64,000 bases of DNA from assembly GCA_021414245.1 (NCBI GenBank), contig JAIOOU010000015.1, forward strand, positions 62,001-126,000. The letters are read 5' to 3'. This DNA is from Chloroflexota bacterium (GTDB lineage: Bacteria > Chloroflexota > Anaerolineae > Anaerolineales > Villigracilaceae). The notes beneath the pieces are model-generated. The model did not search any database. It was not told the DNA's origin and saw only the letters and a list, made by a program, of their open reading frames with translations. This document shows, piece by piece, positions 262-29,044 of this stretch. The first letter of the stretch is position 1. The number at the start of each line of letters is the position of its first letter. Made by a program: the position numbers and the translations under genes.

Positions 262-1863
262 TTATTTCCACGTAAATGGTTCGTTCACCAAAAAGTCGAA
301 TGTGTCCTTGAATTGCGCGAGCCCCTCCGGGCCGAGCACTTTTTCCAAAGGCCAGACCGCCAGGTCATCCCAAAAATTCATCAGGCGCCAGGGGAAGGGA
401 CGCGGGTATTCAAAGAAAAATCGATAGGCATAATTCCAGGCAAACTCAACCTGTTTCTCATTCAATTGATGGCCGGGAATATCAGCCAGCACCTTTTCCA
501 GGGCGGCGTAATATTCATCCCAGGTATTCGGATCGAGCGTAAAGCCGCGTCCGCGGTAGTGGGTTTCGCCGCAGGAAATAACGGGACGCCCATTCATCGC
601 GGTTTCAAGTCCGACCGTGGTGGTGTAGGCCAGCCCGACATCGGCGATCTCGATCAAATCATACGTGTTGATCTTGTCCAACGCCCCGATGACATGGATA
701 TGGCCAGGCAGTTCCGGCAGGGCCTCACGCACCACCGTACCCATGGACTTGGCCTGCGGCACAAGTTTTTCACCCGGATGGACCCGGATCACCATCTGCA
801 CATCGGTCCGTTTTGCAAAATATTGAACGGTCTTCGTGATCCATTCGGTCATCGAAGCGGCGAAGATATCCCGTCCCAGGGTCAGGCTGTCGCCGAGCAC
901 ATTGGCAGCCAGCATCACCACAGGGCGTTCATCCAGGCCAAGCAGTTTGCGGGTCTCCTGCGCGCCTTGCGAAGAGACATATTGCCACAGCCGCTTGGAT
1001 TTGCCCCACACACGCGCACCGCGGCGGGCATTTTCCAGGTCGGCCACGCGCTCAAACATCTCCTCGGTCACAGGCAGATGACAGCGCGCATCCACGATGT
1101 AATCGGTATCCTGCTGCATGATGGATGAATTCTGGGCCAGCCAGATCTGTTCACGCTGGTCGTTGAATTCGTATGTGACCGCGTCCATGCCCAGATGGCG
1201 CGCCACGCGGAAGACAATTCCCATCTCCAGAATCAGACCGTTGGGGATCAAAACCACATCGGGTTTCCTGGTTTGCATCCACTCAAGCGCGGTTTTGGCA
1301 GCGAAGGTATTGCGTTGAATCCGCAGGTCATACAGTGCGCGGTCGCCGGCGTTGTTCATGTCCACTTCTTCGCGCATCAGGGTATATTGCACATCCCAAA
1401 GGGAGATCTCCTTCACGTCCGCCTGGAGACTCTCCGGAAGAACAGCAGCAGGCTTGAGGTCCAGCATGGAAGCGTGCTCTATTAAGGGGGACAATGCCGA
1501 AAGGGCGTCCTTTGTATGAAGCACACGCTGCCGCTGCGTGAAATTGTCCTTTTCCTTGTTCCATTCCGAATACGGCAGGGTTAACAAAGTGACTTTGTGC
1601 CCAAGGCCGGCCAGGACCAGTCCGAGATAGGCGGATTGCTCGATCCAGTAATGAAGCGTGGCAAAGAACAAAACATTTTTTCCGGGTTTCGCTTTCCCGG
1701 CAATCGGTTCAACGACCGCACGCGCCGCAGGCAGGGATTTCTGCAGGCGATCCAGGTTGAAATGATCCTTGCGGGGGCGATTCTTCTGCCGAAGCATCCA
1801 ATCGATCTCGGCCGTGAAAGGCAGGTCGCCCAAAATATTTTTGAGGGTGGGTTTGGCAGCCAC
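262..1863 (-). CDS. Capsule-polysaccharide-biosynthesis-type glycosyltransferase
   Basis: A 533-residue protein without obvious membrane segments. The C-terminal half has the look of CDP-glycerol/capsule synthesis (GT-B-like) transferases: VIRVHPGEK near residue 360, then IGALDKINTYDLIEIADVGLAYTTTVGLE, a loop that in these families contacts the nucleotide-sugar donor. The GTG at 1863 is chosen because it overlaps the ABC ATPase stop (TAGTG), giving translational coupling. The open frame continues upstream inside the ATPase gene but that part looks like shadow coding. Its place directly after a Wzm/Wzt exporter pair suggests it elongates or caps the exported glycan. The exact sugar and linkage are unknown. 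Confidence 0.7.
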   Translation of the reverse strand: MAAKPTLKNILGDLPFTAEIDWMLRQKNRPRKDHFNLDRLQKSLPAARAVVEPIAGKAKPGKNVLFFATLHYWIEQSAYLGLVLAGLGHKVTLLTLPYSEWNKEKDNFTQRQRVLHTKDALSALSPLIEHASMLDLKPAAVLPESLQADVKEISLWDVQYTLMREEVDMNNAGDRALYDLRIQRNTFAAKTALEWMQTRKPDVVLIPNGLILEMGIVFRVARHLGMDAVTYEFNDQREQIWLAQNSSIMQQDTDYIVDARCHLPVTEEMFERVADLENARRGARVWGKSKRLWQYVSSQGAQETRKLLGLDERPVVMLAANVLGDSLTLGRDIFAASMTEWITKTVQYFAKRTDVQMVIRVHPGEKLVPQAKSMGTVVREALPELPGHIHVIGALDKINTYDLIEIADVGLAYTTTVGLETAMNGRPVISCGETHYRGRGFTLDPNTWDEYYAALEKVLADIPGHQLNEKQVEFAWNYAYRFFFEYPRPFPWRLMNFWDDLAVWPLEKVLGPEGLAQFKDTFDFLVNEPFTWK

Positions 1864-3155
1864 TAATCCAACTTCTCGATCTTCCAGGCAAGGCGCGGAC
1901 GCACCGGTCCCACGCGCGGTTCGGCCCACTGCGTACCCGGCGCACCGGAAATGTCCACGTTGAAGGCAAGCGCGTTCTCGTCCATGAAATAACGGCGCAC
2001 GCCAAAGGAGCTTGCGTTCACCCCCAGGCTGTAGCGGCCTTCATTGAAAATGTCGGCGGGGATCACACAGCGGCTGACATAACGGCCCGACTTGCGCGAA
2101 TCGAATTGATCGAACAGACGCGGCTCGTCGGTATCGAAGGATGTGAGCACATATTCGCCGCGCATGGTGCTGAGATAGAACCCGATCCGCAGACCGGTGA
2201 TGGGTGCATCGAGTTGATATTCAAATTCAACATGGACCGGTTCGGTGGAGCGGACCGTGTCCACGACCTTCCCGCTTCCATTTCTGACCTTCAAGCTGAT
2301 CGGCCTGAAGGGGGCACTCGCAGCCGGGACCTCATCCGCATCCCACAGGCGTTCGCCCGCCTGGGCCTGACCGGATGAAAGATAAAAGTCAACGGCTTCC
2401 TGCGTGGGGGCACGCATCAGCAACTGACCCTTGTTCAAGACGATGGCTTCCTGCGTGAGCCGCAGGATCGCGGACATATTATGGCTGACGAATAAAACCG
2501 TGCGGCCCTGCTGGGCCACATCGCTCATTTTGCCCAGGCATTTGCGCTGAAATTCGGCATCGCCCACTGCGAGCACTTCATCCACCACGAGGATCTCGGG
2601 CTCAAGATGCGCCGCAACCGCAAACGCCAGGCGCAGGTACATACCCGAGGAATAGCGTTTGACGGGTGTATCGATGAACTGGCTGACCTCGGAAAATTCC
2701 ACGATCTCATCAAACTTGGATTCAATCTCGGCGTTCTTCATGCCAAGGATCGCGCCGTTCATAAAGATGTTTTCCCGGCCGGTCAACTCGGGGTGAAAGC
2801 CCGTGCCCACTTCGAGCAGCGAACCCACCCGCCCGCGGACGGAGACCGTGCCGGTGGTCGGCTCGGTCACACGGGACAGGATCTTGAGCAGGGTGCTCTT
2901 GCCGGCGCCGTTGCGTCCCACAATGCCGAGGACCTTGCCTTCCTCCACATCAAAGGAAATATCCTTCAAGGCCCAGAAGGAGGCTGAATTGGTGGTGCCG
3001 CGGGAACCCTTGCCGGTCAACGCCTTGTAGATGCGGACGGGGGTCATGGCGGCATCCACGAGCACTTCGCGCAGCATGCCGTACTTGAACTTGGTCTGCG
3101 CCGCGCCGATGCGGTATTGCTTGCCGAGATTTTTTACACTGATGGCGGTAGTCAT
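1863..3155 (-). CDS. Polysaccharide ABC transporter ATPase with C-terminal glycan-binding domain (Wzt type)
   Basis: The 430-residue protein has an ABC ATPase domain with Walker A GRNGAGKST (about 80-88), signature YSSGM (about 168-172) and Walker B ILVVDEVL (about 188-195). About 150 further residues form a beta-rich tail like Wzt C-terminal domains that recognise the end of the finished O-polysaccharide. The ATG at 3155 is two bases after the TGA of the permease gene (TGATATG), and the reading frame upstream of it is not protein-like. With the permease before it, this forms an ABC-dependent export system moving a lipid-linked glycan across the inner membrane. The tail implies a specific terminal group on the exported chain. 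Family assignment is firm; the glycan is not known. Confidence 0.9.
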   Translation of the reverse strand: MTTAISVKNLGKQYRIGAAQTKFKYGMLREVLVDAAMTPVRIYKALTGKGSRGTTNSASFWALKDISFDVEEGKVLGIVGRNGAGKSTLLKILSRVTEPTTGTVSVRGRVGSLLEVGTGFHPELTGRENIFMNGAILGMKNAEIESKFDEIVEFSEVSQFIDTPVKRYSSGMYLRLAFAVAAHLEPEILVVDEVLAVGDAEFQRKCLGKMSDVAQQGRTVLFVSHNMSAILRLTQEAIVLNKGQLLMRAPTQEAVDFYLSSGQAQAGERLWDADEVPAASAPFRPISLKVRNGSGKVVDTVRSTEPVHVEFEYQLDAPITGLRIGFYLSTMRGEYVLTSFDTDEPRLFDQFDSRKSGRYVSRCVIPADIFNEGRYSLGVNASSFGVRRYFMDENALAFNVDISGAPGTQWAEPRVGPVRPRLAWKIEKLD

Positions 3156-3156
3156 A

Positions 3157-4002
3157 TCAGATCGTATCCGCGAAGGTCTTTTCCATGTTTCGGAAATAGA
3201 ACAGACCGCTGAACAGCATGAGGAAGGAGATTGCCACGGAAACCCAAAGCGATGCGTCCGGTCCATTGCCCGAGCCGAGCAGGGCCCAACGGAAACCGTT
3301 GACCACGCCGGCCATGGGATTCATCGAATAGGCCAGCTGCCATTTTTCCGTAACGACAGAAGAGGAATATGCCACCGGGGTGATGAACAGCCAGAATTGC
3401 GTCAGGAATGGAAGCGCATAGTTCACATCACGATACTGGACGTTGATCGCCGAAAGCCAGAGGGAAACCCCCAGGGCCGTGATGATCGCCAACAGCAGAA
3501 AAAGCGGCAAAGTCCACAGACTGGCCCAGGAGGGAGTCACCTTGTAATAGACCATCAAGCCGATCAGTACAACGAAGGAGATCGCAAAATCCACCAGTCC
3601 GCCCAGCACGGAAGCCACCGGCAGGATCAATCTGGGAAAATAGATCTTCGTGATCATGTTATGGTTCGAGGTTAGTGAACGGCTGGCTTGATTAAGCGCA
3701 GCCACAAATAGACCCCAAGGTAAAAGCGCCGTATAAGAAAAGATCGGATAGGGAACGCCATCGCTGGACACCTTCGCAACCTTCCCAAAGATGAATGTGA
3801 AAACGATCATCGTCAATACAGGCTGGATGATCGCCCATAGTGCGCCGAGCAAAGTTTGTTTATAGCGGACCTTGATGTCGCGCCAGATCATGAAGAAGAC
3901 CAGCTCGCGATAGATCCACAGGTCGCGCAGATTCAATGCGGCAAGACCCTTGGAGGGCTTGATGTAAATGGTGGTGGGTTCGTGTTTTGTAATTTCAGTC
4001 AT
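3157..4002 (-). CDS. Polysaccharide ABC transporter permease (Wzm type, ABC-2)
   Basis: The 281-residue protein starts with a cytoplasmic stretch and then the typical ABC-2 exporter motif DIKVRYKQTLLGALWAIIQP (about 43-62). About six hydrophobic segments follow, including FTFIFGKVAKV, LPWGLFVAAL, FAISFVVLIGLMVYY and FLLLAIITALGVSLWLSA. Length and architecture match Wzm/TagG/RfbA permeases, which form the channel for lipid-linked O-antigen or teichoic-acid-like polymers. It is followed at two bases by the matching ATPase and preceded by GDP-L-fucose synthase, so the exported glycan probably contains a GDP-derived deoxysugar (inference). Confidence 0.92.
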   Translation of the reverse strand: MTEITKHEPTTIYIKPSKGLAALNLRDLWIYRELVFFMIWRDIKVRYKQTLLGALWAIIQPVLTMIVFTFIFGKVAKVSSDGVPYPIFSYTALLPWGLFVAALNQASRSLTSNHNMITKIYFPRLILPVASVLGGLVDFAISFVVLIGLMVYYKVTPSWASLWTLPLFLLLAIITALGVSLWLSAINVQYRDVNYALPFLTQFWLFITPVAYSSSVVTEKWQLAYSMNPMAGVVNGFRWALLGSGNGPDASLWVSVAISFLMLFSGLFYFRNMEKTFADTI

Positions 4003-4003
4003 T

Positions 4004-4975
4004 TTATTTGATCATATCCCGATTGGCCTTGAACCAGTCGATGGTCCTGCGCATGCCCTCTTCAAAGGAAACCTGCGCGCTCCAGCCAAACAATTCCTTT
4101 GCCCGCGAAACATCCAGTCCGCGGCGGGGCTGGCCGTTGGGCTTATCGGTTTGCCAGGCAAGTTTGCCGCTGAAACCGGTCATCTTCACGATCATTTCAG
4201 TCAAATTCCTGATTGAGATCTCATAACCGGACCCCAGATTCACGGGCAGGTCGCCGTTATATTTTTCCGCGGCGGTCACAATGCCGTCGGCGGCGTCTTC
4301 CACATACAGGAATTCACGCGTGGGAGAACCGTCACCCCAGACCTGCAATTCCCTGTCGCCCCGTTCGCCGGCTTCCACGGCTTTGCGAATGAGAGCGGGG
4401 ATCACATGCGAAGTCTGCAGGTTGAAATTGTCGCGCGGACCGTACAAATTGACAGGCAAAAGATAGATGGCGTTGAAACCATACTGCTGACGATAGGTCT
4501 GTGCCTGCACCAGCATCATCTTCTTGGCCAGACCGTAGGGCGCGTTGGTCTCTTCAGGGTATCCATTCCAGAGATCATCCTCCTTAAAGGGCACCGGGGT
4601 GAATTTGGGATAGGCACACACAGTCCCGGTGGCAACGAACTTCCCAACGCCATGCTTGTATGCATGATGCATCAGTTCGACCCCCATGATCATGTTGTCA
4701 TAGAAAAACTCGGCCGGATGCTCGCGATTCGCGCCAATGCCGCCCACATTGGCGGCAAGGTGAATCACAATTACATTTTTGACATCCACGCCTTTAAGCG
4801 CATCCGCGTATAAACGTTCGATCGCCTCGCGCTGTGTCAGGTCGTAATCCTTTTTGCGCGGAACGAAAATGTCGGTTGCGCCGCGTCTCTTCAAATTCTC
4901 AACGACGAACGAGCCGAGAAACCCGCCGCCGCCGGTGATCACCACACGTTTGTTCTTCCAAAAATCTTCCGCCAT
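4004..4975 (-). CDS. fcl: GDP-L-fucose synthase
   Basis: This 323-residue extended SDR should convert GDP-4-keto-6-deoxy-D-mannose to GDP-L-fucose by 3,5-epimerisation and NADPH-dependent reduction. Visible features are the nucleotide-binding GGGGFLG (15-21), the family segment [16 protein letters not shown] (72-87), and the catalytic pair Y147/K151 in YGLAKK. The site of the E. coli catalytic serine reads TGTVCAYP here, so that residue is threonine or shifted. The ATG at 4975 is preferred over the in-frame ATG at 4996 because AGGAG lies five bases before it. The partner enzyme, GDP-mannose 4,6-dehydratase, lies 23 kb away in this window. Confidence 0.9.
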
Positions 4976-4992
4976 ATATTCTCCTGTTCTGT

Positions 4993-6003
4993 TCATTGCA
5001 CAATGAACTGCGCATTTCGATATCGATCATCCGTGGGATTGCGGATCAGGCCGGATTTCAACGCGAACAAAACCTCGCGCACGCCGTCATCCACGGTCAG
5101 GGTGGTGCCAAACCCCAGCACGTGTTTGATCTTCTCAAATGAGACCGTGATATCGCGCATATCGCCGCCGAAGGTCAGGTCCTTGTATTCGACCACCGTC
5201 TCAGGCATGCGTTTCAACACCAGCTGGACAATGTCATTTTTCGAGTAATTCCCGTTTTCAGCACCGAGATTAAACACCTGTCCGCGCACGATTTCCCTGT
5301 CCGCTTCGATGCCCATGATCACCCCGCGCACCACGTCACGGATGTGCACAAAGGAGCGCGAATAGCCACGCTGGTAAATAATCAGCGAGCGTTTCGTAAA
5401 GGCTTCCAATACGAACTGGTTGACGATCAGGTCAAAACGCGTGCGCGGGGAAATTCCATACAGGGTGGCAAAGCGAAATAAAAGCGGCGCACAAGCGGAG
5501 TCCTTTTTGGAAAGCAGGAACTCCTCGCTTGCGATCTTTGTTTCCGCATAGATCGATTGCGGATTTAAAGGGGACTCTTCGGTCACCGGCCGGCCGTCCT
5601 CAGACAGACCGTAGTTGCTGTAGGTGGACGCAAACACGAATCTTTCCACGCCCAAATCTGCCGACTGGCCGTAGACACTTTTCGTGGCCTCGACATTGTA
5701 TTTCCAGGCCACCTGCCTCCCCACCGCCTGACAGGCCGGAAAACCGACGATGGCCGCAAGGTGGATCACGGTATCGGGCTTTTGCCAGCCCCGTTTGAAC
5801 GAATCCCGAACGGTGCGCGGCTCGGTCACATCCGCTTTGACAAAATGAAAGTTGGGGTGATTGAGAAACGGGACAATGCCCTCGCCGCCGAACAGCAGAC
5901 TGTCCAGGACGGTGACCCTGTAATTGGCACGCAGCAGTTCCGAAGTCAGAATGGAACCGATATAACCCGCGCCGCCTGTGATCAGCACATGACGATCCGT
6001 CAT
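4993..6003 (-). CDS. NAD-dependent epimerase/dehydratase (extended SDR)
   Basis: A 336-residue SDR with TGGAGYIGS (about 9-17) for dinucleotide binding and a YAETK active site (Y-x-x-x-K, about 153-157) preceded by the STYSNYG serine region. The C-terminal part includes [13 protein letters not shown], typical of nucleotide-sugar epimerases and dehydratases. Its stop region overlaps an alternative fcl start, and its own start overlaps the regulator stop (ATGA), so it is co-transcribed with them. The substrate cannot be fixed by sight; a GDP- or UDP-hexose 4-epimerase or 4-reductase is likely. Confidence 0.8.
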
Positions 6004-6470
6004 TCGATTCCGTCCAGCTTTATCTTGTACCCATCCAGGATCAAGGCGGGTGCGGACTTGTCGGTCACGACGGAAATTCCCTGTTCCATGCAGGTCAATT
6101 TACAGATATCCGCCACATCCCCTGAACCGACGATGCGCACCCGGTCATATCCGGCCTTGCGGATCTTTGCGACATGATCCTTCACCCGCTGACGGGTGCG
6201 CCGGTATACGGAAAAGGAGCGTTCCACATAATCCACGGCCAGACGGGCACGCAGGGCCAGCCCTTCGGGCGTGATGATGTAGCGGAGCTTTTTGCGCTCG
6301 GCACGGGACACTTTAACTGCGCCCTTTGCGATCAGCCGTTTTAAATGCCAGTTGACCGTGCCCACAGCCACACCCAATTGGGTGGCCAGCGCGGATTGAT
6401 TTACATCGGGATCGCTCTCGATCTGTTCGAGCAGGGATAGTTCGCGGAGTTCGTCGTTTGTTGATTCCAT
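6000..6470 (-). CDS. Winged-helix transcriptional regulator with extra C-terminal domain
   Basis: A 156-residue protein. Residues 8-75 form a winged helix: NQSALATQLGVAVGTVNWHL reads as a helix-turn-helix, followed by KRLIAKGAVKV and a wing. It resembles the MarR-like regulators found in exopolysaccharide loci. The C-terminal part (about 95-156) contains RVRIVGSGDVADICKLTC and may sense a ligand; I do not recognise it. The ATG at 6470 is preferred to the upstream GTG at 6497 because the promoter's TATAAT box lies only three bases before that GTG. It heads the operon running down to base 1, and its promoter carries an inverted repeat also present before gmd, so autoregulation is likely (inference). 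Confidence 0.8.
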   Translation of the reverse strand: MESTNDELRELSLLEQIESDPDVNQSALATQLGVAVGTVNWHLKRLIAKGAVKVSRAERKKLRYIITPEGLALRARLAVDYVERSFSVYRRTRQRVKDHVAKIRKAGYDRVRIVGSGDVADICKLTCMEQGISVVTDKSAPALILDGYKIKLDGIE

Positions 6471-6481
6471 GGATTTCACAT

Positions 6482-6506
6482 TCCAAAATTCAGTCACTGA
6501 ATTATA
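6482..6506 (-). promoter_or_regulatory. Operator palindrome overlapping the regulator promoter (copy 1)
   Basis: Inverted repeat with arms AATTCAG and CTGAATT separated by three bases, sitting directly downstream of and overlapping a TATAAT box on the minus strand. The whole 25-base element matches 29020-29044 at 23 positions. Only two bases inside the central spacer differ. A protein bound here would block the start of transcription of the winged-helix regulator operon. Confidence 0.75.
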
Positions 6507-6528
6507 ACTCCATTCAAGGCGTGGTCAA
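6501..6528 (-). promoter_or_regulatory. Sigma-70-like promoter of the regulator/epimerase/fcl/ABC operon
   Basis: On the minus strand TTGACC (6528-6523) and TATAAT (6506-6501) are separated by 16 bases, close to consensus. The transcript should begin about 6-8 bases downstream, inside the operator palindrome and before the ATG at 6470. Confidence 0.7.
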
Positions 6529-6596: not shown

Positions 6597-8030
6597 ATGG
6601 ACATAAACACGCAATTCGATGAAGCAGGTAAAACATATCAAAAGACCCGCATGGCCCATTGGGATGCCATCGCCAAAAAACGCGACCACTGGCGCGGCAT
6701 GGGCACCTGGTATCACCGGCGGCTGATCGAGATCTATCAATACATGGTCAACCCCAACCAACGCATTCTTGAGATCGGCTGCGGCACGGGGGCCCTGCTT
6801 GCGCATTTGAATCCTTCTCATGGAGTGGGGATCGATTTTTCGCCCGAAATGCTTGCGCGGGCAAAACGACTTCATCCTGAATTTGAATATCACCTGGCTG
6901 ATGCGCACGATCTGTCGGCCATCGCCGGCACATTCGATGTGGTCATTTTTTCGGATACTGTCAACGATCTGTGGGATGTGCAGCGCGCCCTTGAACAGGC
7001 GAAAAAATTCTGCGCCCCACACACCCGTCTGATCATCAACTTCTACAGTCATCTCTGGCAATTGCCGCTGACCATTGCGCAAGGCATCAATCTGGCGGTG
7101 CCGATGCAAAGCCAGAATTGGCTGACCCCTGAAGACATCGACAACATGCTGCGCCTGGCGGGTTTTGAAAGCATCAGCACCTCACGGGAAATATTGTGGC
7201 CTCTTCCGCTCGGCGGGTTTGCAAACCGGTATCTCGTCAAACTTTGGCCGTTTCACAGCCTGGCACTCTCGAACTTTATGATTGCCCGCCCCGCCCCGCA
7301 ACCTGCACAAAATCCCAGTGTTTCCGTCGTGATTGCGGCCCGCAATGAGGCTGGCAATATCAAGTCCATTTTTGAACGTGTGCCGGTGATGGGCAGCAAA
7401 ACGGAGATCATCTTCGTCGAAGGACACTCGCACGATAACACCTTCGAGACGATCCAGAATGAAATTTCGCTTCATCCCGGGACCCCAAGCCTGCTCTTCC
7501 AGCAATCAGGCATCGGCAAGGCAGACGCGATCCGACTCGGCTTTGAGAAAGCCAGCGGAGACATCCTGATGATCCTCGACGCAGACCTGACTGTCCCACC
7601 CGAAGATCTGCCGCGTTTCTACGATGCGATTGCGTCTGGAAAAGGTGAATTTATCAATGGCGTTCGTCTGGTCTACCCCATGGAAAGGGAAGCCATGCAA
7701 ACCTTGAATTTCATCGGAAATAAATTGTTCAGCATGACTTTTTCCTGGCTGCTGGGACAACCCATCAAGGACACCCTATGCGGGACGAAGGTCATGTGGC
7801 GGGAGGATTATGAAAAGATCGCCGCAAACCGCTCCTATTTCGGGGATTTCGACCCGTTTGGCGATTTCGACCTGATCTTCGGCGCGGCGAAACTCAACCG
7901 CAAGATCGTGGACCTGCCCATTCGCTACCGTGACCGCACCTACGGAACGACGAATATTTCACGCTGGAAACACGGAGTACTGCTGCTTCGGATGGTCGCC
8001 TTCGCGGCACGCCGGATCAAGTTCATATAA
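6597..8030 (+). CDS. Fused SAM methyltransferase and GT2 glycosyltransferase
   Basis: The 477-residue protein has two catalytic modules. Residues about 1-235 are a class I methyltransferase with ILEIGCGTGALL (57-68) and VGIDFSPEM. From about residue 241, SVVIAARNEAGNI begins a GT2 domain with ILDADLTVPPED (DxD near 327-329) and LCGTKVMWRED, similar to dolichol-phosphate-mannose-synthase-like enzymes but without a C-terminal membrane anchor. It is transcribed away from the regulator, with the TAAAAT at 6582-6587 nine bases before the ATG. It probably transfers a sugar to a lipid phosphate or glycan and methylates the same or a nearby substrate (inference). Each domain call is firm; the joint reaction is unknown. 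Confidence 0.85.
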   Translation: MDINTQFDEAGKTYQKTRMAHWDAIAKKRDHWRGMGTWYHRRLIEIYQYMVNPNQRILEIGCGTGALLAHLNPSHGVGIDFSPEMLARAKRLHPEFEYHLADAHDLSAIAGTFDVVIFSDTVNDLWDVQRALEQAKKFCAPHTRLIINFYSHLWQLPLTIAQGINLAVPMQSQNWLTPEDIDNMLRLAGFESISTSREILWPLPLGGFANRYLVKLWPFHSLALSNFMIARPAPQPAQNPSVSVVIAARNEAGNIKSIFERVPVMGSKTEIIFVEGHSHDNTFETIQNEISLHPGTPSLLFQQSGIGKADAIRLGFEKASGDILMILDADLTVPPEDLPRFYDAIASGKGEFINGVRLVYPMEREAMQTLNFIGNKLFSMTFSWLLGQPIKDTLCGTKVMWREDYEKIAANRSYFGDFDPFGDFDLIFGAAKLNRKIVDLPIRYRDRTYGTTNISRWKHGVLLLRMVAFAARRIKFI

Positions 8031-24314: not shown

Positions 24315-25220
24315 TCATTGGGAATCAATCTTTTTTTTGTTCATGGCCGCCAAAATGGACGGTAGAAAAAAAGCGCCCGGCAGGCTGGTCACAATAAAGA
24401 GGATGCGTATGAGCACGGCAACAGCAAGACTCTCGGACTGACTCAATCCTCCGAACTTGAACAACAGGAAGGTCAAGGATAACTCCTGTATGCCATATCC
24501 ATTCACCGAAATTGGAATGAGGGTCACAAAATAGGTAAAACTCCATAGACCTGCGATCAACCAATAGGAGACATGCCGCCCCATTCCGGATACAAGCAGA
24601 AAGACCGCCAGAAAAATGAAGAACATGTTACCAAAAGTGGACATCAACGACGCAAACAATGCCAGAGGTTTTTTAAACCAGATTCCGAAGGTGCCGAAGG
24701 TCCGTTTCGAAAAATCCAATCCTTTTTGGAACAAGGGGGCAAAGAAACCGCTCTGCAGGCCGGCCCCGCCTGCGGAAAGAACCGGGACCAGACCGAAGGG
24801 AAGTGTGACCAGCATCCCGGCCATGCCGATCAGCCGGTCGGCTACCATTGAGGCAAGGCAGATCGCGCGGTCATAGCCCAATTGCATCACACCTGCCAGG
24901 CGGACCACATCACCGCCGATCGTTGTCGGCAAAAAATTGGATGAAAAGAGCCCCGTGAACGTGATCATGGCCGTCTGCCAGAACGTAATATCGAGCCCCG
25001 CCGAACGCAGCAGAACATGCCAGCGCTCCACCACGAACAGCCTCGAAAGCAGCATGACCACCACCCCGGCCAGCAGATAGGACATAGATATGCTCTTAAT
25101 CGCCGAGGCAATATCCTGCCCGCTTTCCTCCTTCAACAGCACCACCAAAAGAACAAGAGCCAGCAGGCTGCCTGCAAAACGGGCGATCGACTGGCGGTTT
25201 TTCCTGATCCAGTCAATCAC
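24315..25220 (-). CDS. LPG-synthase-TM/UPF0104 family membrane protein
   Basis: The 301-residue protein has about seven hydrophobic segments. It shows family patterns such as FTGLFSSNFLPTTIGGDVVR (about 88-107) and, near the end, NGYGIQELSLTFLLF. The GTG start at 25220 immediately follows the stop codon of the GT2 gene (TAAGTG), implying coupling. Together with the GT2 it resembles glycolipid modules in which a sugar-phosphate-lipid made by the GT2 is moved across the membrane by the partner (inference). It is related in family to the protein at 15470-16507. Confidence 0.8.
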   Translation of the reverse strand: MIDWIRKNRQSIARFAGSLLALVLLVVLLKEESGQDIASAIKSISMSYLLAGVVVMLLSRLFVVERWHVLLRSAGLDITFWQTAMITFTGLFSSNFLPTTIGGDVVRLAGVMQLGYDRAICLASMVADRLIGMAGMLVTLPFGLVPVLSAGGAGLQSGFFAPLFQKGLDFSKRTFGTFGIWFKKPLALFASLMSTFGNMFFIFLAVFLLVSGMGRHVSYWLIAGLWSFTYFVTLIPISVNGYGIQELSLTFLLFKFGGLSQSESLAVAVLIRILFIVTSLPGAFFLPSILAAMNKKKIDSQ

Positions 25221-26180
25221 TTAATCACCAATCTTTTCAAGGTTGATCATCGTGCGGATCGTATACGTGGGTTTCCTTTGGGATTCATGATAGGTGCGGA
25301 CAAGCAACTCCGCGATCAATCCCATCAAAATGGACTGAAAACCCATGATGGAGAACATAATCGCAAGTTGAAAGAGCGGGGAACCAAGAACAGCCACCGA
25401 ATCGAAAATACGGCGAATAAAGAGATAAACCATCAGGGCGCCGCCGCCAAAGATAAAGGCCATGCCCGTTCCGCCAAACAGATAGATTGGCTTATTGGCA
25501 TAACTCAGTAAAAATTTGACAGTGAACAGATCGAGCAATACCTTCACGGTTCTCTCCAGACCATACTTGGCCTTGCCAAATTTCCGGGGGTGGTGATGGA
25601 CGGGCAGCTCGGCAATTTTTGCTCCGACAGAATGTGCAAACACCGGGATAAACCGGTGCATCTCGCCATACAACCGGAATCCGGCCAGCGCCTCGCGACG
25701 GTAGGCCTTCAGCGTACAACCGTAATCATGCAGATGGACTCCGGTCACCCAGGAGATCAATCCGTTTGCCAGAACGGAAGGCAGAGTGCGGGTGATGGCG
25801 TTGTCCTTGCGCTCCTTGCGCCAGCCGCTGACGAGATCATAGCCCTCGTCCAGTTTGGCGAGCAGCATGGGAATGTCAGCGGGATCGTTCTGCATGTCGG
25901 CGTCGAGCAAAACAATGGTCTCCCCGATCGCATGGTCAATGCCGGCTGCAATCGCGGCGGTTTGTCCAAAATTTCGCCGGAAGGAGATCACCCGGAGGTG
26001 CTTCCGGTCCCTTTCAGCATGCTCCCGAAGCACGGACAGGCTGTTGTCACGGCTGCCATCATCCACAAAGATCGCCTCCCATGACTGGTTGATGGTCTTC
26101 ATGATCGGTTTGATCGCATCCAGCAAAAGCGGGATGTTGTCCTGTTCGTTGTATACCGGAATTACAAGTGATAGTTTCAT
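25221..26180 (-). CDS. GT2 polyprenyl-phosphate glycosyltransferase (DPM1/ArnC-like)
   Basis: The 319-residue protein begins LVIPVYNEQDNIP, followed by AIFVDDGSRDNS and IVLLDADMQNDPADIP, which carries the metal-binding DxD motif (about 96-98). The QNDP form is characteristic of enzymes that make polyprenyl-phosphate sugars. Two C-terminal hydrophobic segments, PIYLFGGTGMAFIFGGGAL and LFQLAIMFSIMGFQSILMGL, anchor it in the membrane. It probably loads undecaprenyl phosphate with a hexose that the GT-C enzymes nearby use as donor (inference). Confidence 0.9.
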   Translation of the reverse strand: MKLSLVIPVYNEQDNIPLLLDAIKPIMKTINQSWEAIFVDDGSRDNSLSVLREHAERDRKHLRVISFRRNFGQTAAIAAGIDHAIGETIVLLDADMQNDPADIPMLLAKLDEGYDLVSGWRKERKDNAITRTLPSVLANGLISWVTGVHLHDYGCTLKAYRREALAGFRLYGEMHRFIPVFAHSVGAKIAELPVHHHPRKFGKAKYGLERTVKVLLDLFTVKFLLSYANKPIYLFGGTGMAFIFGGGALMVYLFIRRIFDSVAVLGSPLFQLAIMFSIMGFQSILMGLIAELLVRTYHESQRKPTYTIRTMINLEKIGD

Positions 26181-28019
26181 TTATTTCCTATGAAAAACGC
26201 GCAATTGGGATCCTTCCAGACAGGAAGTCCCCACTGGGGACCGTTTGAACTCGTCAAACATTTCTGGATTTAAGAACTCTTTCCATTCGGCAGTAAAGCG
26301 CCAGCTCTCGATAATGAAGTAGTCGGCAGACGCCTTCCATCCGGCATCCATTTCCTCATTCCAATAGCCAAACTTAATCAGTTCGGCTGTATTCCCCTGG
26401 CTTCTAAAAGCGTATCCGTCATTGATCTGCGCCGGAAAAATATCCGCTTCCGGAAGATAAAGGAGCGGCGCAGTGGAAAGTCCGCCATTCCAATAGACCA
26501 GGCTGCCTTGTGGAATGAATTCCTGCAGATAGGCACCGATCTGTTCATTTGCAAGGATAACATCAGAATCACAATCGTGTGCACCCGCACTTCCATGCAA
26601 AACAGGAGATAACACAAGGCCCAGGCCAAGAACCAGAACCACAACGAAGGAGCCAAACCCGGCCCTTTCCCGCCCCATCCAATTCCAGATCACATACCCG
26701 GCCAAAATGATCAACCCGCCCAGGCTGAATCCGAAAAAGGTTGAAACATACTTCATCGCCAGGTTATTACTGATGTGAAACCTGTTCGACAGGATATCCC
26801 ACCAGGTCACAAAACCGGGCAGAAAATGCAGGTCCCGCATCCTGGGGGCGGGCAATTGCAGAAGAGGGGAACCAATATCTTCAACAGCGGAATACCCGAT
26901 GCCGGTAAAGATCAGCATCAAGACAACGATCAATAAACCCTGATTCAACAGCGGCGGATCCCAATTCCATGATCCGGCCACGACCACCAGAAGCAGGATG
27001 CCGGCAACATTGAAAAAAGCAATGTAGGGGGTGAAACAAAAAACACAGTAATCCTGTCCAATAGCCGCCAGGGAATGCATGATCGCCAGCCCCCAAAACA
27101 ATGTCAGAAGAAACAATCCCATCCGAAAATCGACCCGGGACTTCCAACTGTTAAATTTTGGCCAGAGGAAAAGGACTGCGATGCTGCCTGCCAGGGCAAC
27201 AAAATGAAAACGCAACGCCTGGAAAATTGAAAGCAGCCGGGAAGCCAGGGACATATCCGGTGACCAGCTGGGCGTACCGCCTCCCTGAAAGGTTGCCTCT
27301 GCAGGCAATTGAAGTAGCGGCACCCAGCTCCACAACTGCAGGATCATCGGCCAGTAGATGACATGCGCCAAAACCACAACGGCCAGACCGCTGATCAGCA
27401 GGCCGGCTGCTTTCCGGCCGTGCTCCCAAAATGCATAGAGCGCCAGAAGCGGCAGAACAGGCACCATGTTCTGGCGGACCAGAATCATGAGACCGGCCAG
27501 AACGCCTGCCAGAGTCAATTGCCAAAAAGACCGGTTTTCTCCAAGGGAAAAGAAAAGCGCCCACGCCAGCAGGCAGGCAATGGTGCTTTGCGTTGCTCCC
27601 CCGCTGTAAATTTTGATGATCATGGGACTGAGCGCAAACACCCATACCGTGCCCGCCGCAAGCCATTTGCCGCCAATGCGACGGGAGGTCAACCAGGTTC
27701 CAATCACGGCCATCATGCCAAAAAAGACAGCCAGATAACGGCCGGTTCTCAGGCCCGCTCCAAAAAGAAGTTGAACGTATCCCGGAATTAAAAAGGCCAG
27801 AGGGGCCTTGTTCGTTACAATACCGGGGTCAAAGGGATGATATTTGCCGGTTGCGAATAGCATCCCCTTCAACAAATACGCACCTTCATCCAGATTGGAG
27901 ACTGTTGTGTGGGCGAACAACACCGCCTGAATTAAATACACCAGCAGGCCCAGCAGGGCCAGGACGTCTGCAGTCCAAACGGGCCAGTCAATTTTCTGAA
28001 AAAGCGCAGTTCTTTTCAT
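26181..28019 (-). CDS. GT39/ArnT-like membrane glycosyltransferase
   Basis: The 612-residue protein has about eleven hydrophobic segments. The first loop holds SNLDEGAYLLKGMLFATG, with the DE pair typical of GT-C donors, followed by the TNKAPLAFLIPGY segment common in this superfamily. A soluble tail of about 130 residues follows. It abuts the GT2 gene with no gap and lies downstream of gmd, so it is in the same transcript. A polyprenyl-phosphate sugar is the likely donor (family knowledge); the acceptor is unknown. Confidence 0.85.
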   Translation of the reverse strand: MKRTALFQKIDWPVWTADVLALLGLLVYLIQAVLFAHTTVSNLDEGAYLLKGMLFATGKYHPFDPGIVTNKAPLAFLIPGYVQLLFGAGLRTGRYLAVFFGMMAVIGTWLTSRRIGGKWLAAGTVWVFALSPMIIKIYSGGATQSTIACLLAWALFFSLGENRSFWQLTLAGVLAGLMILVRQNMVPVLPLLALYAFWEHGRKAAGLLISGLAVVVLAHVIYWPMILQLWSWVPLLQLPAEATFQGGGTPSWSPDMSLASRLLSIFQALRFHFVALAGSIAVLFLWPKFNSWKSRVDFRMGLFLLTLFWGLAIMHSLAAIGQDYCVFCFTPYIAFFNVAGILLLVVVAGSWNWDPPLLNQGLLIVVLMLIFTGIGYSAVEDIGSPLLQLPAPRMRDLHFLPGFVTWWDILSNRFHISNNLAMKYVSTFFGFSLGGLIILAGYVIWNWMGRERAGFGSFVVVLVLGLGLVLSPVLHGSAGAHDCDSDVILANEQIGAYLQEFIPQGSLVYWNGGLSTAPLLYLPEADIFPAQINDGYAFRSQGNTAELIKFGYWNEEMDAGWKASADYFIIESWRFTAEWKEFLNPEMFDEFKRSPVGTSCLEGSQLRVFHRK

Positions 28020-28044: not shown

Positions 28045-29016
<972 letters not shown>

Positions 29017-29019
29017 TTA

Positions 29020-29044
29020 TCCAAAATTCAGTTGCTGAATTATA
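29020..29044 (-). promoter_or_regulatory. Operator palindrome overlapping the gmd promoter (copy 2)
   Basis: The inverted repeat AATTCAG / CTGAATT with a three-base spacer immediately follows TATAAT (29044-29039, minus strand). It matches the element at 6482-6506 in 23 of 25 positions, including the flanking TTTTGGA. The -35 region is weak by eye, so an activator or another sigma factor contact may matter. The predicted transcript start lies inside the palindrome, which suits repression. Confidence 0.7.

Follow-up and report, generated by a model that had tools for sequence, protein, structure and literature searches.

Two nearly identical promoter elements within one 64,000-nucleotide stretch of an Anaerolineales (Chloroflexota) genome raise the question of which protein reads them and which genes are connected in this way. 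This stretch, called the window below, covers C14:62001-126000 of a 3.87 Mb genome that is 98% complete. A direct comparison of the 25-mers at 6482-6506 and 29020-29044 reveals identity at 23 of 25 positions, both differences falling in the N3 centre of AATTCAG-N3-CTGAATT, which agrees with the 23 matches given in a preliminary description; the TATAAT box that it described as fused to this palindrome on the same strand is likewise present at 6482-6506 and 29020-29044. In the aligned sites the invariant part of the operator is AATTCA-N5-TGAATT, while the flanking G..C is only preferred. This core occurs exactly twice in the window, at 6487-6503 and 29025-29041, and is found 0 times in 100 dinucleotide shuffles of the 64 kb. 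On the minus strand, TATAAT overlaps each palindrome with three bases in common (6506-6501; 29044-29039), and the genes downstream of both operators lie on the same strand as their TATAAT boxes. The promoter elements are as follows.

6487..6503, unstranded: operator 1, AATTCA-N5-TGAATT, perfect in 66 of 70 regulator loci and 80 of 80 named MAG loci
6501..6506, minus strand: -10 box TATAAT overlapping operator 1, with the identical fusion in 66 of 66 perfect sites (70 loci) and 80 of 80 named loci
6523..6528, minus strand: probable -35 box TTGACC, 16-bp spacer, located by eye in the sequence
29025..29041, unstranded: operator 2, AATTCA-N5-TGAATT, perfect in 29 of 30 genus gmd loci and 11/12 in the other one
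29039..29044, minus strand: -10 box TATAAT overlapping operator 2, with a -10-like box at equal offset in 30 of 30 gmd loci

The genes behind the two promoters are listed below, first those behind operator 1 and then those behind operator 2.

6000..6470, minus strand: 156-aa winged-helix regulator, MarR_EPS-like, extended at the C-terminus by an alpha/beta part (HTH_24 and MarR above the Pfam gathering scores; TIGR04176 64.6 bits; structure model)
4993..6003, minus strand: NAD-dependent sugar-nucleotide epimerase/dehydratase (profile/domain matches)
4004..4996, minus strand: GDP-L-fucose synthase-like (Fcl-like) protein (NF047922 297.5 bits, under the cutoff of 500; best solved relatives GDP-fucose synthases)
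3157..4002, minus strand: ABC-2 polysaccharide exporter permease, Wzm-like (profile/domain matches)
1863..3266, minus strand: exporter ATPase, Wzt-like, with Wzt_C domain (profile/domain matches)
262..1929, minus strand: capsule-synthesis-like protein in conserved gene order (PF05159; present in 59 of 80 named loci)
28045..29007, minus strand: GDP-mannose 4,6-dehydratase, gmd (TIGR01472 442.7 bits, above the cutoff of 415; PF16363)
26181..28019, minus strand: PMT-type membrane glycosyltransferase, next after gmd (PF13231; probable operon member by spacing)
25221..26180, minus strand: family 2 glycosyltransferase, probable gmd operon by spacing (PF00535)
24315..25220, minus strand: LPG_synthase_TM membrane protein, probable gmd operon by spacing (PF03706)

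The regulator gene thus sits in a polysaccharide cluster, on the same strand as and adjoining the epimerase, fcl-like, Wzm- and Wzt-like genes. This gene order is widely kept: among 80 named loci, many of which end at contig ends, we counted the regulator in 80, the epimerase in 76, the fcl-like gene in 72, Wzm in 61, Wzt in 48 and the capsule gene in 59. The products of gmd and fcl together make GDP-fucose, and by sequence the best matches of the Fcl-like protein among solved structures are GDP-fucose synthases (E 8.7e-66).

The regulator passes the Pfam gathering scores for HTH_24 (43.0 bits against 21.9) and PF01047 MarR (27.3 against 24.6). Its best curated family is TIGR04176 (MarR_EPS), nonetheless at 64.6 bits and under the curated cutoff of 88, so that we name it MarR_EPS-like and do not file it as a family member; three scanned plasmid relatives score 143-153 bits to the same model. 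The likeness lies in the HTH part, which was matched by 24 of 24 diverse aligned members of the regulator family (best E 2.4e-21), in the polysaccharide-cluster setting and in the related palindromes upstream of the plasmid relatives; the model has 105 positions, and the regulator is longer at its C-terminus. FabT (NF050133), a MarR-type repressor of fatty acid synthesis, was the second most often matched curated family among the 24 members, and 6jbx, a FabT, is the best-scoring solved chain by sequence (E 1.5e-5), but the regulator scores only 25.2 bits against a cutoff of 200 and the gene context differs. The AlphaFold model of the whole regulator is of moderate confidence (pLDDT 77.2, pTM 0.46) and folds the C-terminal part into a small alpha/beta unit. 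Foldseek with this model gave no match at E 0.001; VIA-align of residues 86-156 placed PH1313 best, at Z 7.8 with an rmsd of 2.9 over 70, and also returned a ThiI structure with Z 6.0, both below the trust level of the tool. The C-terminal part may be a sugar-nucleotide binder. A NeuD/PglD-type domain gave no Pfam match in the 156-aa regulator; the longer C-terminal part of a Chelatococcus relative has a weak, sub-cutoff match of this type (E 3.5e-4), and Pfam on that protein returned the HTH only.

A genome-wide search for AATTCAG-N3-CTGAATT with its downstream genes, as the preliminary description had proposed, found 3 exact copies, and the wider consensus AAAATTCA-N5-TGAATTTT added two sites with a perfect core. 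The five perfect cores found in the genome are those at 6487 and 29025 of the window, C14:34594, C16:151002 and C5:60257. With at most 2 mismatches to AATTCAG-N3-CTGAATT there are 19 places vs 1 for the reversed control, and with at most 3 mismatches to the wider consensus 47 vs 17; of the weaker look-alikes, L004 and L007-L015 are by eye without the fused promoter layout and were treated as background. The idea of many unrelated genome copies was rejected: the 3.87 Mb yielded five perfect cores, although looser matches also occur. Downstream of C14:34594 lies a bifunctional sulfate adenylyltransferase/APS kinase gene (Sat-CysC, PAPS synthase), with a divergent membrane-protein gene opposite; this synthase, outside the window, scores 827.3 bits to PRK05537 (NF004040), above the cutoff of 669. 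C16:151002 precedes a SAM methyltransferase gene, and C5:60257 precedes an Rrf2 regulator with PstS-, PstA- and PstB-like ABC genes. The target set is therefore wider than the GDP-fucose synthesis claimed at first, since this core also precedes the PAPS synthase, the methyltransferase and the Rrf2/phosphate-type ABC operon.

Two sulfotransferase-family genes (L132 7249-8103; L133 900-1925) lie within about 7 kb of the PAPS synthase, and NeuB-type and cytidylyltransferase genes are in its neighbourhood, which together suggests a sulfated acidic glycan. Because of the sulfotransferase-family genes and the NeuB-type genes nearby, the PAPS plausibly serves glycan sulfation and not assimilation alone. 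A sulfatase-family gene (L132 17372-18895) is also close to the synthase. For the fifth site, with its Rrf2 and Pst-like genes (L131 8000-12285), the core fills the spacer between TTGACA and TATGAT and may belong to Rrf2 itself, whose protein gives a sub-cutoff CymR match. Since one half of this site drifts in several genomes and the site could serve Rrf2, we count the Rrf2/Pst-like operon only as possibly in the regulon.

The site before the regulator is highly conserved. Among 70 regulator loci (the window's own genome and 69 others, regulator identity down to 49%), the best 17-mer from -110 to +30 is perfect in 66 and 11/12 in 3; in L088 no site lies within 110 nt, though its contig carries a perfect one 1.3 kb upstream. 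TATAAT is joined to each of the 66 perfect sites in identical register. The 80 named loci, which are Chloroflexota MAGs (identity at least 67%), many labelled Anaerolineales, all carry a perfect TATAAT-fused core 4-23 nt before the aligned regulator start, although the sets L031-L060, L061-L100 and the named L181-L260 have genomes in common and these counts are not independent. In total the named loci hold 83 perfect cores, 80 of them at the regulator, and 10 cores at 11/12, against 0 perfect and 2 at 11/12 for the reversed pattern. Extra perfect cores less than 10 kb from the regulator were seen in two MAGs (L181 4961; L216 6631).

Presence of the site also follows presence of the regulator. 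We found the regulator in 156 of 201 relatives and TATAATTCA-N5-TGAATTWT in 148 (reversed control 0/201); the site is in 144 of the 156 genomes with the regulator vs 4 of the 45 without it (Fisher p 2.9e-27, a value that ignores shared ancestry). The four regulator-less genomes with a site (G003, G041, G086, G094) are 60-82% complete, and three examined among the 12 regulator-bearing genomes without the strict pattern (L093, L095, L098) carry an 11/12 variant. A second pattern, applied to 52 chosen genomes, was present in 20/26 with and 1/26 without the regulator (control 0/52). Across the phylum, 21 of 301 sampled genomes have the regulator at E 1e-10, all in the order of the window; inside the genus, all 57 genomes have sites with at most one mismatch, and 3 have matches to the reversed control. 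One genome, G061 (97% complete, 440 contigs; L423, L424), has no match to the regulator or gmd and has perfect sites before Sat and the methyltransferase, a pattern that may reflect an assembly gap, a recent loss or another reader. The co-occurrence is also compatible with a linked second factor.

Conservation at the target genes was determined on the 30 best loci each, from searches over 57 genus genomes with matches in 53, 50, 55 and 32 for gmd, PAPS synthase, methyltransferase and Rrf2 (the own genome being L031, L261, L291, L321 and L351 in the locus sets). The site is perfect before gmd in 29/30 (the other 11/12), before the PAPS synthase in 30/30, before the methyltransferase in 26/30 (4 without a site), and before Rrf2 in 22/30, with 5 at 11/12, 3 at 10/12 or less and the drift confined to one half; the in-gene control gave 0 for all four. 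Thus the pair for which a comparison of related genomes had been suggested recurs at the regulator (66/70) and at gmd (30/30 genus loci). Second sites in other genera and families, 18 regions (L425-L442) hand-picked from the list of site-bearing relatives, lie before gmd in 14; the other four precede a PAPS synthase, a family 2 glycosyltransferase, Rrf2 and, in one case, no recognised target. For gmd loci of regulator-less genomes, 0/30 reach 10/12 and the maximum is 9/12 (30 of 34 hits, 41 genomes), a test that is partly pre-selected, the 41 of 45 genomes being those without a pattern match and G003, G041, G086 and G094 being left out; the gmd loci of regulator-less G003 and G041 (L266, L286) have the site. 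Through footprinting and co-occurrence, it is strongly supported that one operator links the regulator/fcl-like operon to gmd and is read by the regulator.

The promoter geometry falls into different classes. At the regulator and gmd, the -10 box starts 3 nt before the palindrome, which spans about -9 to +8 and so lies over the expected transcription start as originally claimed. At Rrf2 the palindrome stands between TTGACA and TATGAT, in the spacer position (27/27 scored), and these three placements are classic repressor positions. At the PAPS synthase, the distance from the palindrome start to the beginning of -10 is 23 nt (30/30), which puts the palindrome at about -35 to -19; at the methyltransferase this distance is 32 nt (19/25), and the palindrome falls at about -44 to -28. 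Because these two sites are upstream of -10, either sign is conceivable there and activation is possible.

With a probability of about 0.82, we read the palindrome as the operator of the MarR_EPS-like regulator, the dimer of which would repress by covering the promoter, in a regulon of about five promoters; the sites, their conservation and their link to the regulator gene are observed, whereas binding by this protein, repression and the ligand are inferred. The conserved palindrome before the regulator gene measures 17-21 bp, and those of MarR dimers 16-20 bp. The dimer would bind AATTCA-N5-TGAATT, with half-sites one helical turn apart, and at its own operon and gmd would cover roughly -9 to +8, blocking RNA polymerase. 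The dimer would then be released by an inducer, probably some signal inside the cell of the glycan-precursor state that the C-terminal part senses. The regulon would comprise the regulator's operon, including the fcl-like gene and exporter, gmd with the glycosyltransferases, the PAPS synthase near the sulfotransferase genes, the methyltransferase, and possibly the Rrf2/Pst-like operon, so that the regulator could coordinate the supply of GDP-fucose and sulfate donor for a surface glycan. Of the earlier proposal that the regulator represses itself and both halves of GDP-fucose synthesis, the shared operator at the regulator/fcl-like operon and gmd stands by footprinting and co-occurrence; repression fits the site over -10 and the expected start, and is suggested by that position.

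The regulator might bind these sites and yet act mainly as an activator, or with a sign that depends on position, as WggR does. The palindromes around -35 to -19 at Sat and -44 to -28 at the methyltransferase would suit this, and passages of PMC3233446 and PMC10458429 describe WggR (ExpG) of Sinorhizobium meliloti, a MarR-type galactoglucan regulator linked to phosphate, as a protein that binds conserved palindromes in its own promoter and in those of further EPS genes, and that activates or represses according to phosphate and its partners. By that description, WggR resembles the regulator here as a MarR-type protein in an EPS cluster that has such palindromes both at its own promoter and elsewhere among the EPS genes, but it is mainly an activator, together with PhoB. 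Since the regulator and gmd sites overlap -10 and the expected start and the Rrf2 site is in the -35/-10 spacer, where activation would be unusual, we regard a mainly activating or dual role as unlikely, though it deserves some weight.

Distinctly less probable is that the palindrome is recognised by another factor, for example the Rrf2 of the fifth site, with the MarR-like gene as no more than one of its targets. The Rrf2 gene has the same core in its own promoter, G015 and G031 have a symmetric site before a different Rrf2-like gene (L137, L141), and G061 retains two sites without a detectable MarR-like gene. Against this, the site tracks the MarR-like gene through the order and by genome presence, Rrf2 orthologues (E 1e-30) occur in 32/57 genus genomes vs sites with at most one mismatch in 57/57, and MarR-like paralogues and Alphaproteobacteria relatives also have related palindromes. 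A hairpin in the leader RNA, which a perfect inverted repeat so close to the start codon could suggest, is very improbable and was rejected from promoter geometry, because the expected transcripts begin inside the palindrome (regulator, gmd) or downstream of it (Sat, methyltransferase, Rrf2), so none holds both arms. Chance, or the recent duplication of one promoter, could be imagined from the two copies in the window, but it carries a practically negligible probability; both origins were rejected, chance with 0 matches in 100 shuffles, and both because the pair is met again in further genera and families, where its centres vary.

Beyond the genus, the plasmid protein search gave 14 relatives, all assigned to Alphaproteobacteria in their records. 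TTCA-N4/5-TGAA stands within 150 nt upstream in 13/14 (in-gene 0/14), Aestuarium (L394) being the sole one without it. In Chelatococcus (2 records) there are two copies, with N5; the other 11 positive records have N4, of which 7 show the full GCGTTCA-N4-TGAACGC with variable centres. The operator arms differ, with AATTCA in the window and CGTTCA in the MarR_EPS plasmid relatives. The Chelatococcus winged-helix protein (L381, L388) is 37% identical over residues 10-135, including the start of the C-terminal part, has TTCA-N5-TGAA upstream, and is followed by gmd and GDP-L-fucose synthase; L381 scores 51.5 bits to TIGR04176, likewise under the cutoff. It differs in its length of 235 aa, its longer C-terminal part, the other phylum and the two palindromes. 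Chloroflexota paralogues, about 40% identical, match this core at 10-12 of its 12 positions in 7/7 loci. In these loci (L416-L422) a -10-like GAGAAT is fused to the same palindrome, and in 4/7 the contig also carries gmd at a distance of no more than 10 kb; no such paralogue was found in the genome of the window.

The literature searched (titles and abstracts), including Anaerolineae regulons and GDP-fucose with MarR autoregulation, yielded no MarR_EPS operator or regulon, and among the matches listed for MarR with exopolysaccharide, palindrome and repression no title or abstract dealt with this operator. No mention of the accession TIGR04176 was found, and the name MarR_EPS appeared in a single passing mention of a transcriptome result, in PMC10599003. 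A conserved and easily searched operator makes the MarR_EPS-type regulator testable, and its targets can be listed from MAGs alone. A passage of PMC9942424 discusses Chloroflexi as builders of flocs and granules in wastewater reactors, and the operator suggests how these bacteria might coordinate surface-polymer precursors. A broader reading, tentative and possible rather than probable, is that TTCA-N4/5-TGAA is a family-wide operator code for MarR_EPS-type regulators in Chloroflexota and Pseudomonadota, and that the Anaerolineales regulator couples GDP-fucose, PAPS, methylation and the uptake of phosphate for a surface glycan that is sulfated and contains fucose, with feedback by nucleotide sugars via its C-terminal domain.

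Two further observations concern the surroundings of the regulators. The leaders of the MarR_EPS genes L382-L387 and L389-L394 contain TGCGGTAGC in 11/12 and TGCGGCAGC in L392; this element, which resembles the ops/JUMPstart element and was seen in Roseobacter leaders, follows the palindrome and precedes the start codon in leaders that have both, and a NusG-family gene is adjacent in L386. No ops/JUMPstart-like GCGGTAGC occurs in the 64 kb window. Within the window, a methyltransferase-glycosyltransferase fusion gene (6597-8030), divergent from the regulator, begins 94 nt from the operator and might be co-controlled.
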